From the NCBI GenBank assembly GCA_016618085.1, contig JABLTG010000083.1, positions 21,770 to 85,769 of the forward strand: a stretch of DNA of 64,000 nucleotides, read 5' to 3'. Below, in pieces: positions 16,344-51,247 of the stretch (position 1 is its first letter; each line of letters begins with the position of its first letter). The notes below the pieces were generated by a model that searched no databases, was not told where the DNA came from, and was given only the letters and a program-made list of their open reading frames with translations. The translations under genes were made by a program, and so were the position numbers. This DNA is from Neovahlkampfia damariscottae. Taxonomy: Eukaryota; Heterolobosea; Selenaionea; Neovahlkampfiida; Neovahlkampfiidae.

Positions 16344-17120
16344 TTATTTCATAAGTTTTTTCACAGAAAAATCGTATTCTTTTTGTGATAAAACACCCTT
16401 TTCAAGGAGTCCATTTAATTTATCAAGTTTTGCTTGTTTTTCACTGTCCAATCCAGAAACTTCTGTTGTTTTGACATTTGAAGCTTTAGGTGTTTCTTTT
16501 TTTTCTGTAGCAACAGGTGAAGCATTATTTGTATTTTTTGATGTTGGTGGTGCGGAACCAGTTATTTTTGATACAGAATGATCATATTCTTCTTGTGACA
16601 AAATTCCTCTCTCAAGTAAGTTTTGTAATTTATCAAGTTTAGCTTGATCTTCATCTGATAAATTGCTTGAAGAATTTTTTGGAGTTGTTTCAGATTTTGA
16701 TATTTCTTTTGGTGTTTGATTTGATTGTGGTAAAATTCCTATGATTTTGGATACAGAATGATCATATTCCTCTTGTGAGAGTATACCTTTATCAAGAAAA
16801 CTCTTTAATTTTCCAAGTTTTGCTTCATCTTCTTCTGATAAACCATCTTTGGAAGTTGGTTTTGAAGAAACTTTGACTTCTAATTTTTGTTGTTCTTTTG
16901 GTGGATTTTTTACAATTTTTAACATTGATTTATCATATTCTTCTTGTGTCAAAATACCCATTTTCAAAAAGTTTTGGAATTTGTCATAAGAGTCTTGATA
17001 TTTTTCGTTTATCAATTTCATTTTTGCTCCGTATTCATAATCAGTTACTATACCCTTTCCATTTAAATTTTTTAGTTTATTGATTAAAATTTGATCATCG
17101 TTGTCATAGTTCCACTCCAT
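16344..17120 (-). CDS. SHOCT-like repeat protein (five repeats)
   Basis: 258 residues built from five copies of a 22-24 residue helical unit with the pattern KLxxLLxxGILSQEEYDxSVxKI, at about residues 10, 45, 95, 150 and 225. Variable linkers rich in Lys, Ser, Thr and Pro separate them. The unit resembles the SHOCT (short C-terminal) domain, which is usually a single copy at the end of bacterial membrane or oligomerising proteins. A tandem array in a eukaryote is unusual. No signal peptide or membrane segment is seen. Start Met at 17118-17120; an upstream Met is in frame but its stretch looks non-coding. A GACCAATC element lies about 34 bases upstream. Function unknown; oligomerisation is a guess. 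Confidence 0.75.
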   Translation of the reverse strand: MEWNYDNDDQILINKLKNLNGKGIVTDYEYGAKMKLINEKYQDSYDKFQNFLKMGILTQEEYDKSMLKIVKNPPKEQQKLEVKVSSKPTSKDGLSEEDEAKLGKLKSFLDKGILSQEEYDHSVSKIIGILPQSNQTPKEISKSETTPKNSSSNLSDEDQAKLDKLQNLLERGILSQEEYDHSVSKITGSAPPTSKNTNNASPVATEKKETPKASNVKTTEVSGLDSEKQAKLDKLNGLLEKGVLSQKEYDFSVKKLMK

Positions 17121-17336
17121 TTTCTTTTGTGAAAAAAATCTGGTTTCTGTTGACCAATCATTGATCAATATCACCAAGTTTAGAAAAAAAAGAAAATTTA
17201 TCAAATTTTGAAAAAGAAAATGCAGACAACTTGTTGTCAAATTTCCACCAATTGTTTTACCAACGGTTATAAATAACAACCAATAAAATCATTTTGTAAC
17301 AGTAAACTCCAAAAAAAACCCACAAAAACAGAAAAA

Positions 17337-44867: not shown

Positions 44868-46126
44868 ATGAGCAAGAAAACAAACAAAAAATCAGAATTA
44901 TTTCATTTTAAAGTGAATCCTTTTTTAGGAACAAATGAAGTTTTGGATGAATATGAAGAACATTTACAAGAAAGATCTGAAAAGCATATGGGCATGCCTT
45001 ATAATTTAAAATTAAAACATGAAGAACTTTCACCATTTCTTGAATTCTCTATTAACAATTTAGGTGATCCATTTGTACAAAGTAATGTAAGAAAAATATC
45101 ACATCTTATACCCAAAATAGTATGGAGTTCATTCAAGAGCATTTGAAGTTCAAGTTTTACAATACTTTGCTCATTTATGGAAGATTCCTTTAAAAAAGTA
45201 TTGGGGTTATGTTACAATGTGCGGAAGTGTAAGAATAATATAAAAAAGTTAATGTTAAATTTTTAACACAGGAAGGTAATTTGTATGCCATGATTCTTGG
45301 AAGAGAAATTTTTCCAGATGCAATTTTATACACTTCTGAAGAATCACATTTATCAATATTTAAAGCTTCTTTGTTGTTCAAAATTCCTTTACAAACCATC
45401 AAAACATTAGAAAATGGAGAATTAGATTATGACGACTTTGAAAAAAAACTATCAGCAAATAAAGATAAACCAGCTATTATTAACTTAAATATTGGTACTA
45501 CAGTCACTGGTTCAGTTGATAATGTTGATAATGTTTTGAACATTTTGGAAAAATACAACTTTAAAAATAGGTATTACCTTCATTGTGATGGTGACTTATT
45601 GTCAATGCTTTTGAATCAAGTGGATGATAGAATTGTTATTCCAAGCTTTGAGAAAGATATTCACAGCATTTCAATTTCAGGTCACAAATTTTTAGGATGT
45701 CCAATGCCTTGCGGAGTTTTATTGACATATAATCATTTGGTCAAACATTTAGAACAACATATTCAATATTTAAATTCAGTTGATACTACTATTACAGGAT
45801 CAAGAAATGGACAAGCTGCTCTTTCTATTTGGTATACTCTCAGAGAAAAAGGCAGAAAAGTTTTCATCAAAGAAGTTAGTCAATGCTTGGAAAATGCTGA
45901 ATATTTATCAAAGAAATTGAGTGATATCAAGATAGATTCCAATGTCAGCAACAATATTGTCATGTTTTCCACTCCAAAAAACCCACATTTCATCAAAAAA
46001 TGGCAATTATTGACCCACAAAAAACAAGCAGTCGTTTCAATAATGCCAAACATTACCAAACAAAGAATTGATGAATTTGTGAACGATTTATTAGAATTAG
46101 AGACGTTGTTGCAAAGTAAATTATAA
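44868..46126 (+). CDS. PLP-dependent (histidine/serine-type) decarboxylase, intein-free copy
   Basis: About 393 residues in three exons (introns 45087-45120 and 45229-45271). Group II amino-acid decarboxylase most like bacterial/plant histidine or serine decarboxylases. Motifs: [67 protein letters not shown] and [13 protein letters not shown] with the PLP-binding Lys. It makes histamine or ethanolamine-type amines; substrate cannot be decided from sequence. The motif CGSEGN is uninterrupted in protein, but an intron sits between its CGS and EGN codons. It lies 1.7 kb from a homologue with an intein just before this Cys. One Asp-to-Gly-like change (HCDGD, usually HxDGA/HADAA) is worth checking for activity. 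Confidence 0.9.
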
Positions 46127-47850: not shown

Positions 47851-50800
47851 ATGAGTTCAGAAGAAAAAACAACACAACATAATTTCCAAATAAATCCATT
47901 TCATGGAGTTAAAGACGTCTTAAAAGAATACCAAAAACATTTAATAGAGAGGACAGAACATCATTTAGGATATCCTTATAACTTAAATTTACAACATCAA
48001 GAATTAGGAAAATTTTTGAAATATTCAATTAACAACTTGGGTGATCCATTTAGTAGATCTTCATACGGAGTTCATTCAAGAGCATTTGAAATTCAAGTTT
48101 TACAGTATTTTGCTCACCTTTGGAAAATGCCAATCAAAGATCATTGGTAAACTTTTTTATTTTGTATTAAAAATATCTCAATCAAGGGGTTATATTACAT
48201 CATGTTTTGAAAAAGGTACTGAAATACGTATGGCAGATGGTTCAACAAAAAAAATTGAACAAATTAAAGTTGGTGAAGATGTTTTAGGTCCTGATTCAAA
48301 ACCAAGAAAAGTTGTTAGAGATTCAAGTGAAATTAATGGAAAAAGTGAAATGTTTAAGATCACAGAAAATACACAAAACGTAAAAGAAGATGAATGTTTT
48401 GGTAGAATAGAATATGTATGCACTTCAGATCATATTTTAGTTTTAAGAACACCTATAAACGTTTATTATGGAGGTAAAGATTCAAAAGAAACAAAATCCA
48501 ATGGTAAATATGAAATTGTCAGTTGGTTTGAAAAAGTTGGTGATAAAGTTCAAAAAAGAACGAAAACATTTTATCACAATAATGAAATTCAAAAAAAAAA
48601 AGAAGCAAAAGAAAAAGCTTTGGAGTTTTATAGAAAAAAGTTAAATGAATTTGAAAGTATAAAAAATTTTGATTGGCAAATTAGTGCAAAAGAATTTGTA
48701 AAATGTGACAAAAATGTCATAAAAGCAACAAAACAAATAATTGCACCAATATTAGTTGAAAACAAATATTTTGAAAAGAAATGTGAAGAAGTTGGAATTG
48801 ATAAATCAAATAAATTTAAAGCTGCTTGGTTACTTGGTGTATGGATCGGAGATGGCAGTTCAGCAGAACCATCAATTGCAGTTAATATTGAAGATAAACA
48901 AGAAATTGAAAGAATTAAAGAATATTCAAAAGAATTAGGATTAAATTCAAAATATTTAGAACAATCTAACTTTGATAAGAAACACAAAAAAGGTGACATT
49001 TTCATTCGTTCTGGTGAAGAAAATATTAAAAAAAATGGTGAAATTTCAAAATATCAAAATTTTAGAAAAAGAAATCCTTTATGGGATATAATTAAATCAT
49101 GTGGAGATCACGGAAAACCAAAATTTAAAACAATAGTTAACGATTTTGAAAAAGATGAATTGGAAGTTAGAAAGTGGCTAATGTGTGGTTTAATTGATTC
49201 TGATGGTCATTTATCTGAGAACATGAATAATGGAAAAATATACCAAAGAATTAAATTTGTGACAGTTTATGAAGGTGTCAGAGATGGCTTTGTTAAATTA
49301 GCAAGATCACTTGGTATTAAAATTTCAACTCACATTGAACATCAACACATTGATAAAAGAGGAACAAGTCACCAAACAGCTTATGTAATTTTTCTTACAA
49401 TGTGTTCAGCTTTAAAAGATATTTTAAATAAATCATCAATGAAAAGAGACAATATCGACAAAAATGGTTCCAGAAATAAATTCACCGAATTTGATTCAAA
49501 TGACATTAAATACGAAGAAATTGAATTTCATTTTACATGCAAACCAATTCAAAAAAGAATTAGATGTGATAAACAATTAACAATTGAAGACTTAAAAAAT
49601 TTGAATGATGAACATATTAAAAACCTTATTTTAAAGAATTTTGGTAAAAAATGGAAAGAATTGTCACAAAATAAATTAAATGTAAATGGGATTTCAATTG
49701 ATAGAATTAAATATCAAGTTAGACATTCAAATGAATTATCATCAGAAATTAAAAATTATTTTGTTTCATTATTACAAGAAAATATTCAAGAAATTCAAGG
49801 ATATGATATTATTGAAGATTCAACACATAAATCAAAATATTATGGTATTCAAACTGATAAAGATCATTTATATTTACTTGCAAATGGCTGTGTTGTACAC
49901 AATTGTGGTACTGAAGGTAATTTATATGGTATGTTACTTGGTCGTGAAGCTCATCCAAATGGTGTTTTGTATTCAAGTTTAGAAACTCATTATTCAGTAT
50001 TTAAAGCAGCAAGATTTTATAAAATGGATTGTGAAGGGATACCAACTCTTTTCAGTGGTGAAATTAATTATGAAGAATTCGAAAAAGCTTTACAAAAGAA
50101 TTTAGACAGACCTGCAATTGTTAATGTGAACATTGGAACAACAGTCAAAGGAGCTATTGATGATTTAGACAAAATTTTGAAAATTTTGAAAAGAAATGGA
50201 TTTGAAGATGATAGTAAATTCTATATTCATTGTGATGGAGCTTTGTTTGCTCTTATTTTGCCTTTTTTGGATAACAAATTTGTTGATGTTTCATTTAAGA
50301 AACCAATTCACAGTATTTCAGTTTCAGGACATAAATTTTTGGGTTGTCCAATGCCTTCAGGTATTGTTATTACTTACAAAAAATTCATGCAAAATATTGG
50401 TAAACAATTGATGGAAGGATTTAATGGTAATGATGCAACTATTTTAGGATCAAGAAATGGACAAGCAGCAATAGCTTTATGGTATTCATTGAGAGAAAAA
50501 GGAACTGATGAATTAGTCAAAGAAGCCAGAATTTGTATTGAAAATTCCGAATATTTAATGAGCCTTTTGAAAGAAAGAGGAATTTCTTGTTTTAAAAATG
50601 ATTTGTCAAATACTGTTGTTTTAGAAAAACCACAAGATATGAACTTTGTTTTAAAGTGGCAATTAGCTTGTAAAGACACAATTTGTCATGTTGTTGTCAT
50701 GCAAAGTACAACAAAAGAAGTCTTATTCAAATTTGTTGAAGAGTTGGTTCAAGTAAGAATAGACACAAACTCTGTTGGAAAGGTATGTATCTATGATAGT

Positions 50801-50869
50801 GTTGGACCATGTTGCATTTGTGAAAAATGTAAAAAATCAAAAGAAAAAACAACAAAAAGTAGATTATAA
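47851..50869 (+). CDS. PLP-dependent (histidine/serine-type) decarboxylase interrupted by an intein
   Basis: The precursor is read from two exons (40-nt intron 48147-48186) without any stop. N-extein (104 residues) ends KDHWGYITS. A 567-residue intein follows, then the C-extein (321 residues) starts CGTEGNLYGM and contains NIGTTVKGAIDDLD, HCDGALFALILPF and [13 protein letters not shown] with the PLP Lys. Spliced enzyme would be about 425 residues, like the copy at 44868 but with a C-terminal Cys/Lys tail (CCICEKCKK). Motif HCDGA is the usual form, so this copy is likely the working decarboxylase. Without splicing the active site would be disrupted, so activity should depend on the intein. The start ATG is at 47851; ATTGGTT lies about 50 bases before it. 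Confidence 0.93.
48203..49903 (+). mobile_element. Full-length intein with LAGLIDADG homing endonuclease
   Basis: 1,701 nt, 567 residues, in frame with the host. Splicing motifs: block A starts with Cys1 (CFEKGTEIRMADGS...IKVGEDVLG); block B CTSDHILVL (T-x-x-H, about 73-81); block F YGIQTDKDHLYLLANG; block G CVVHN with the terminal Asn, followed by +1 Cys of the host. All class-1 splicing residues are present. Between the blocks lie two LAGLIDADG motifs: LLGVWIGDG (about 209-218) and LMCGLIDSDGH (about 324-335), about 115 residues apart as in monomeric endonucleases, with both acidic residues kept. It therefore looks capable of homing. A Lys-rich segment of about 70 residues (about 455-525) precedes block F. 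Codon use is as AT-rich as the host. Confidence 0.95.
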
Positions 50870-50935
50870 AATTTTCACTTTCTTGTTATATTTTTAAATG
50901 GATATTCAAACAAAATCTGAAATAACCATTAATTG

Positions 50936-51247
50936 TTCTTCATTTCATGTTTAACAAATTTGAGAACAATAATAACTCCAAAAGAACATTATACCAGTTG
51001 TACATGTGGATCATGTGGAAAAATAGATTGGAAACTTGGAAAAAAAGATCATTTCAATTGTAAATATTGTAATTTTTCTCTTCCAAGAGATTATAATGGA
51101 GCAAGAAATATATTTCTGATGAATATACAAAATTTTATTGGAAATCCAAAAACAGCCAGTACTGCTGGCGACGGTCCTATCCCGAAAGAAACTTTGATTT
51201 TAATGTCTGGTCTGATTAATCAGAATGAACGGAAAAGTCAGTTTTAA
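50936..51247 (+). mobile_element. TnpB/Fanzor C-terminal relic (zinc ribbon and RuvC-III)
   Basis: A 104-codon open frame with no ATG-started gene around it. It encodes the very end of a TnpB/Fanzor-type RNA-guided nuclease: YTSCTCGSCGKI, FNCKYC (four-Cys ribbon), then RDYNGARNIFL, which carries the RuvC-III Asp and the family-typical D-x-NGARN, then the usual short variable tail. The guide-binding, RuvC-I and RuvC-II parts are missing: upstream lies the end of the decarboxylase gene, with no room. So it is a truncated fragment, not a working nuclease. Whether it is eukaryotic Fanzor or recent bacterial/viral TnpB cannot be told from this stretch. No terminal repeats or target duplication seen. 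Confidence 0.8.

Follow-up and report, generated by a model that had tools for sequence, protein, structure and literature searches.

The closest described counterpart of the element reported here is PI-SceI (VDE), the VMA1 intein of Saccharomyces cerevisiae, with which it shares a Hint splicing domain joined to a two-motif LAGLIDADG nuclease, Cys at position 1, a His-Asn terminus followed by Cys+1, and the predicted fold. Seven nuclear hosts of inteins have been tabulated, namely Prp8, VMA1, RNA polymerases, ThrRS, GLT, CHS and IF2/eIF5B, and where more than one intein per nuclear genome is discussed in the same source the highest number named is three, in Fusarium fujikuroi (Green 2018, PMC5784728). 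Ectopic movement has been raised for pairs such as Cre RPB2 and ThrRS, in a text that calls it 'likely to be a very rare event' and in which flank similarity is not obvious between the related non-allelic pairs considered (Goodwin 2006, PMC1635734).

The stretch of DNA analysed here (the window; 64,000 nucleotides of a Neovahlkampfia damariscottae contig) carries a VMA1-type intein in a gene for a serine decarboxylase, with a tandem paralogue that is intein-free. Nine related intein copies, this one included, are found in the genome. The features of the locus are given below in window positions.

44868..46126 (+): tandem intein-free paralogue; predicted exons 44868-45086, 45121-45228 and 45272-46126
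47851..48146 (+): exon 1, encoding residues 1 to 98, and part of residue 99, of the N-extein; an open frame in another phase, the joined protein aligning with the paralogue
48147..48186 (+): predicted spliceosomal intron of 40 nt, GT..AG, with 16 nt between its end and the intein (sequence-inferred)
48187..48202 (+): start of exon 2, last N-extein codons (..GYITS), in agreement with WGYITNCGTEGN of serine decarboxylase 8jg7, which matches the ligated host protein at the insertion point
48203..49903 (+): VMA1/PI-SceI-type intein, 567 aa, before the extein Cys; assigned from PF05203, PF05204, the PI-SceI alignment and the predicted fold
48203..48748 (+): N-terminal part of Hint (splicing), which includes block B T74-x-x-H77; from profiles, with an approximate boundary chosen for the analysis
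48785..49447 (+): homing-endonuclease domain, approximate limits, from PF05204 / PF14528 and the predicted model
48821..48856 (+): LAGLIDADG motif 1 (AAWLLGVWIGDG); Asp217 aligned with PI-SceI Asp218, Asp in 9/9 copies
49175..49207 (+): LAGLIDADG motif 2 (WLMCGLIDSDG); Asp334 aligned with PI-SceI Asp326, Asp in 9/9 copies
49574..49780 (+): extra helical module between the endonuclease and the C-terminal Hint; no counterpart in PI-SceI, found in 6/9 copies
49835..49903 (+): blocks F/G of the C-terminal Hint, with VVHN as last residues; TIGR01443 above cut-off, PI-SceI alignment
49904..50869 (+): C-extein (CGTEGN...) of 321 aa and a stop codon; in the ligated protein the PF00282 match runs through the junction

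The insert at 48203-49903 translates as 567 stop-free codons, from Cys to His-Asn, with a Cys codon immediately behind. Its two other forward frames hold 32 and 90 stops, and the residues typical of inteins are present as C1, T74-S-D-H77 (block B T-x-x-H), H566-N567 and the +1 Cys. Pfam profiles match it well above their cut-offs, with Hom_end_hint (PF05203) at E 2.9e-43 and 148.9 bits (cut-off 32.1) and Hom_end (PF05204) at E 1.3e-25 and 90.1 bits (cut-off 21.1); LAGLIDADG_3 (PF14528) also matches, as does the NCBIfam model intein_Cterm (TIGR01443), above its cut-off, and the Pfam scan of the insert gave no zinc finger match. Alignment with PI-SceI (E 1.1e-51) covers residues 1-412, the C-terminus aligning weakly, and a profile of the family matches PI-SceI from end to end (E 6.8e-117). 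An AlphaFold2 model built with nine sequences as input has a mean pLDDT of 77.1 and a pTM of 0.69, and every one of the first 12 Foldseek matches to it is a structure of PI-SceI/VMA1 (4.8e-31 and TM by target 0.80 for the best). Since profiles, alignment and predicted fold all agree, the insert is by sequence and model a full-length VMA1/PI-SceI-type intein. An earlier note, made from the letters alone, had proposed an in-frame 567-residue intein at these positions with two LAGLIDADG motifs and the intein blocks intact, using the Cys of the host's conserved CGTEGN motif as the +1 nucleophile. All of this stands: the catalytic Asp and block residues are present, the Cys codon directly follows His-Asn, and Hint and LAGLIDADG profiles, a check that the note suggested, match the insert.

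Readings in which the insert is not an intein at all, but an intron for the spliceosome, a product of chimeric assembly or a dead insertion that has put the gene out of action, are extremely improbable. A predicted intron does lie 16 nt upstream, and the intein-free paralogue could compensate for lost function. The insert, however, begins with TGTTTTG and closes with CACAAT rather than having GT..AG ends, and its 1,701 nt compare with 34-43 nt for the three predicted introns of the two decarboxylase genes. It contains no stop where 2,000 shuffles of the same composition have a mean of 57.7 in frame (minimum 32), its block residues are intact, ten further inteins lie on nine other contigs, and in the single pair of copies tested (NAR1/ZZ, below) the endonuclease is under purifying selection.

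The decarboxylase gene has its ATG at 47851 in exon 1, which is in a different frame from the intein, and the intein exon carries just five N-extein residues (GYITS) and one base of the preceding codon. The frame had earlier been described as unbroken from N-extein to C-extein; it is open from the insert into the C-extein, and exon 1 is to be joined across the predicted 40-nt intron. The predicted precursor has 992 aa, and removal of intron and intein leaves a predicted ligated extein of 425 aa, in line with the length of about 425 residues first anticipated. Pyridoxal_deC (PF00282) matches residues 50-330 of this ligated protein, across the junction, and in phmmer comparisons with solved structures it finds serine decarboxylase 8jg7 at E 1.4e-138 and histidine decarboxylase at 3.6e-68. 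The original assignment to a histidine/serine-type decarboxylase is thereby kept as to the PLP decarboxylase and refined to the serine side, to which the host protein is closer by sequence. Serine decarboxylase is a plant-type enzyme. The ligated protein aligns through the junction with serine decarboxylase, PF00282 and the paralogue, as predicted for a host that is intact once the insert is removed.

The paralogue ends ~1.7 kb upstream of the intein-bearing gene; with the ligated extein it shares 195 of 391 aligned residues. Its counterpart of the insertion site is empty and reads YVTM-CGSEGN. Two introns are predicted in it, of 34 and 43 nt, the longer splitting the CGSEGN motif exactly behind CGS, where it would disrupt any DNA target spanning the motif. 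The paralogue is thus a natural empty site at the level of the predicted protein; the DNA sequence differs.

Downstream, a 104-aa open reading frame at 50933-51247 (+) starts 63 nt beyond the stop of the decarboxylase gene, which lies directly in front of it; it matches a Cas12f1-like TNB domain (PF07282, 1.7e-10), which corresponds to the C-terminal part of a TnpB/Fanzor-like protein. There are at least 99 PF07282 matches in the genome at E <= 0.01, of which 33 of 99 start <1 kb from a contig start (contig starts being those counted), and several share identical contig offsets (56-253, 143-340, 18-80, 9-68), as if an amplified element had broken the assembly or sat near chromosome ends. Elsewhere in the window, at 16344-17279 (-), SHOCT-domain matches (PF09851, 4.3e-22) occur on what is a eukaryotic contig; the SHOCT domain is best known from bacteria.

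A search of the 20.4-Mb assembly (307 contigs, window included) with the window intein returned nine places, all at E <= 9.6e-61, and a genome scan with PF05203 gave the same nine loci above cut-off and none besides. These are nine VMA-type inteins in eight genes, UPF1 having two, and each is stop-free and placed just before an extein Cys. Two further inteins, in RPB2 and in an EF-Tu-type GTPase, belong to a second lineage (PF14890); they are 51% identical, and the search for that lineage returned just these two. Scans of the genome with PF14890, PF14528, TIGR01445 and PF01079 gave no intein beyond the resulting eleven, which occupy ten genes on ten contigs, all with Cys at +1 and all ending in His-Asn. 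By sequence the genome therefore holds at least eleven inteins, a lower bound in that the profile scan scored best candidates and that intron-broken frames or highly divergent inteins could escape it. The exteins belong to ordinary genes of the host. The hosts and insertion sites are listed below; their domains come from profile matches, and the gene names beyond domain level are presumed.

Serine decarboxylase: YITS/CGTEGN, (+), VMA-type, the window copy
UPF1-type helicase, two inteins: QILV/CAPSN and IILT/CVRSN, in one 1,799-codon frame, VMA-type
Acyl-CoA oxidase: HKMG/CNGVDN, VMA-type
NAR1-type Fe-hydrogenase-like protein: ELSD/CLACSGC, VMA-type
ATE_C + ZZ + UBX domain protein: NRYH/CLDCPD, VMA-type
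NFX1-type zinc-finger protein: HPGV/CPECPA, VMA-type
TBC-domain protein: DLGY/CQGMGD, VMA-type
Dihydropyrimidine-dehydrogenase-like protein: CYMT/CNDTGY, VMA-type
RPB2 (RPB2 domains by profile): MERD/CMISHG, second lineage, PF14890
EF-Tu-type GTPase, which we take to be GTPBP1-like: PVIH/CMCVRQ, second lineage, PF14890

The inteins of the UPF1-type helicase frame (L012 4194-9590 (-), contig C38) differ from one another and are 487 and 553 aa long, so that two protein-splicing events would be needed per protein. The ZZ-finger host (L018 4518-7325 (+), contig C1) is a single open reading frame that combines an arginyltransferase C-terminus (ATE_C), the intein-interrupted ZZ finger and UBX, a fusion of which no other example is known to us. 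A weak PF05203 match at C290:22034 was excluded from the intein count. It was read as a vWA-type protein with a C-terminal Vint-like Hint (L048 70-2016 (+), contig C290), a non-intein Hint relative identified by reading. The host's own VMA1 gene is uninterrupted at YVG-CGERGN, between which parts we take the VMA1 intein site to lie; with that site empty and the window insert in a serine decarboxylase, the latter is not an allelic VMA1 intein (VDE proper).

The nine VMA-type inteins range from 443 to 567 aa. Among the alignment columns examined, C1, T6, H77, D217, K309, D334, H566 and N567 are identical in 9/9 copies, and position 74 is N in place of T in 7/9, as in PI-SceI. D217, K309 and D334 are presumably the counterparts of the PI-SceI catalytic residues D218, K301 and D326; what we take to be the fourth, K403, falls where the family alignment varies. 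The endonuclease is accordingly intact-looking by sequence in all nine copies. Pairwise identity is 34-44% in 35 of the 36 pairs, the exception being NAR1/ZZ at 57%. For this pair, the only one of the 36 for which dN/dS was calculated, and by a simple method (NG86) in an AT-rich genome, dN/dS is 0.27/0.79 for the endonuclease part and 0.37/0.89 for Hint. By these values, selection has preserved the NAR1/ZZ endonuclease no less strictly than the splicing domain, which is what continued homing would lead one to expect.

The extra helical module measures 66-73 residues in six of the nine copies and 0-35 in the other three. In the window copy it is helical in the AlphaFold2 model, with pLDDT of 50-82 over the block. 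Four of the six module segments were scanned, and three gave matches to HTH families (HTH_3; YlxM-like/HTH_36/HTH_11/MarR_2; GerE), all below cut-off; the segment of the window copy gave no HTH-family match, and for one segment non-HTH families scored equal or higher. The module is perhaps HTH-like and DNA-binding.

The genome-wide set bears on how the window intein arrived. A recent horizontal arrival, as first suggested, is not supported. The window intein has a GC content of 0.256, close to the 0.282 of its flanks, and is 34-40% identical to the eight relatives in the same genome, which makes it neither foreign in composition nor newly copied. Across all eleven inteins GC is 0.24-0.29, and 0.245-0.307 in their flanks.

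The explanation that we consider probable is that these are selfish homing VMA-type inteins that moved repeatedly between unrelated genes, with splicing and homing inferred from the residues present. In the translated precursor the Hint domain would excise itself by Cys1, C-terminal Asn and Cys+1 chemistry, joining the exteins into a serine decarboxylase of 425 residues. The freed intein would then cut intein-less alleles of the same gene, and repair would copy the intein in (homing). Less certainly, the nine copies would mainly represent ancient, repeated moves of one VMA-type lineage from gene to gene in the ancestors of this organism by rare ectopic homing, each copy being retained afterwards through homing in populations, and the second lineage, in RPB2 and the EF-Tu-type GTPase, may have behaved in the same way on a smaller scale. 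Insertion before Cys in apparently conserved motifs would follow because a Cys+1 nucleophile is needed and because an intein is expected to survive only at sites where losing it imprecisely would kill or burden the host; the motif was compared here for the decarboxylase, and for the other sites its conservation is presumed.

If enzyme activity were controlled as well, that would be a secondary effect. The earlier note had raised post-translational control of amine synthesis, and a fuller form of that idea makes the inteins domesticated regulators whose conditional splicing (redox, metal, temperature) governs amine synthesis and the other hosts. The junction Cys is redox-sensitive in principle, and 4 of the 11 sites (ZZ, NFX1 and two Fe-S sites) have what we take to be a probable metal-ligand Cys. 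An intein in DnaB of Mycobacterium smegmatis is also reported as an oxidative-stress sensor (PMC6195587). The catalytic residues examined are nevertheless kept in 9/9 copies, as they should be in a homing element, no common pathway was recognised among the hosts, and the decarboxylase has a paralogue without an intein. Control of amine synthesis finds no support here, and relatives in functionally unrelated proteins suit a selfish element better; domestication in general seems to us very improbable.

The origin of the nine copies was examined with a family profile against viral and prokaryotic loci (the best 80 of 224 viral and the best 80 of 175 prokaryotic). It gave 162 matches including PI-SceI, which scored 391 bits against 170 for the best of the 161 viral and prokaryotic ORFs from the loci examined, and 11 of these 161 entered a tree of 21 sequences. 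The nine inteins and PI-SceI are split from the 11 others by a branch with 100/100 support. Within the family NAR1+ZZ is the sole supported pair (98/99), the remainder is nearly a star, and the tree does not put PI-SceI outside the nine.

A star-shaped tree also allows several separate arrivals, and nine acquisitions from viruses, prey or other protists, in each of which a VMA-type intein out of an unsampled pool homed into its own allelic site, form a rival account that we judge unlikely, though not negligible. It would suit the star-like tree, in which PI-SceI is not set apart from the nine, and the low identity in all pairs except one, and an intein is described as being, as a rule, closer to its allelic counterparts than to non-allelic inteins of the same species (Goodwin 2006, PMC1635734). 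The nearest viral and prokaryotic relatives in the loci examined are, on the other hand, much weaker than PI-SceI, and the NAR1+ZZ node joins inteins in unrelated genes, with RPB2/GTPase as a second such pair. Both pairs make some gene-to-gene movement likely, and with the copy number and the lack of closer relatives in the loci examined they are the reason for favouring spread within the lineage.

As a possible route for that spread, look-alike target sites were examined. CGTEGN of the decarboxylase resembles CGERGN of the VMA1 site in the same register, the UPF1 pair share C-x-x-S-N, and C-x-x-C occurs at NAR1, ZZ and NFX1. Intein identity is not significantly related to site identity (Mantel p 0.078-0.60 over eight site windows), and the mutual similarity of the nine insertion sites gave p 0.043-0.76 over six windows. 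As close a resemblance to the VMA1 site of the host as that of the decarboxylase site is reached by 6.0-61.1% of 604 background Cys codons over five windows, the worst values coming when the upstream side was included, and for five site pairs chosen post hoc, with three windows each, the fractions were 0.006-0.50, uncorrected. As these tests were mostly negative, look-alike target sites are not claimed as the route. We tentatively picture an intein lineage close to a transposon in its habits, which gained an extra module, helical and perhaps able to bind DNA, and spread into Cys motifs of eight or more unrelated genes with its endonuclease intact-looking throughout.

With at least eleven inteins in 20 Mb, this nuclear genome would be a system for asking how homing endonucleases acquire new targets. 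The same set bears on why inteins occupy highly conserved motifs and on how nine homing cycles persist, and protein engineering would gain new nucleases and new splicing domains from it. A literature search, its reach excluding most subscription journals and bioRxiv preprints, returned no account of a comparable intein-rich nuclear genome, and among the ten host genes here RPB2 alone is on the host list of Green 2018 (PMC5784728).

Compared with PI-SceI, which has 454 aa and resides in VMA1, the window intein has 567 aa, resides in a serine decarboxylase, includes the extra helical module, and is one of nine non-allelic copies in a genome whose VMA1 is empty. The HO endonuclease and WHO elements of yeasts are also VMA-intein relatives that reached new genes with an added module, but they are described as having no exteins, no motif G and a zinc finger (PMC7282813), whereas the window insert has exteins on both sides, a His-Asn terminus and intact splicing residues, with no zinc finger match. 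The GLT1/CHS2 inteins of fungi offer a proposed case of nuclear intragenomic transfer between two unrelated exteins (PMC5784728), similar to what is proposed here; that case concerns one host-gene pair, compared with eight host genes for one lineage and two for another in this genome. As with the nuclear RNA polymerase inteins (RPA2, RPB2, RPC2), there is an intein in RPB2, at ERD-CMISHG, although it belongs to the second lineage and not to that of the window intein, and has its relative in the GTPase. Judged by sequence, the window intein is a new member of the VMA-type family and the genome-wide set is new in its behaviour, with eight hosts and an added module in six copies, and the movement of inteins from gene to gene here looks to be far beyond what is thought usual in the nucleus.
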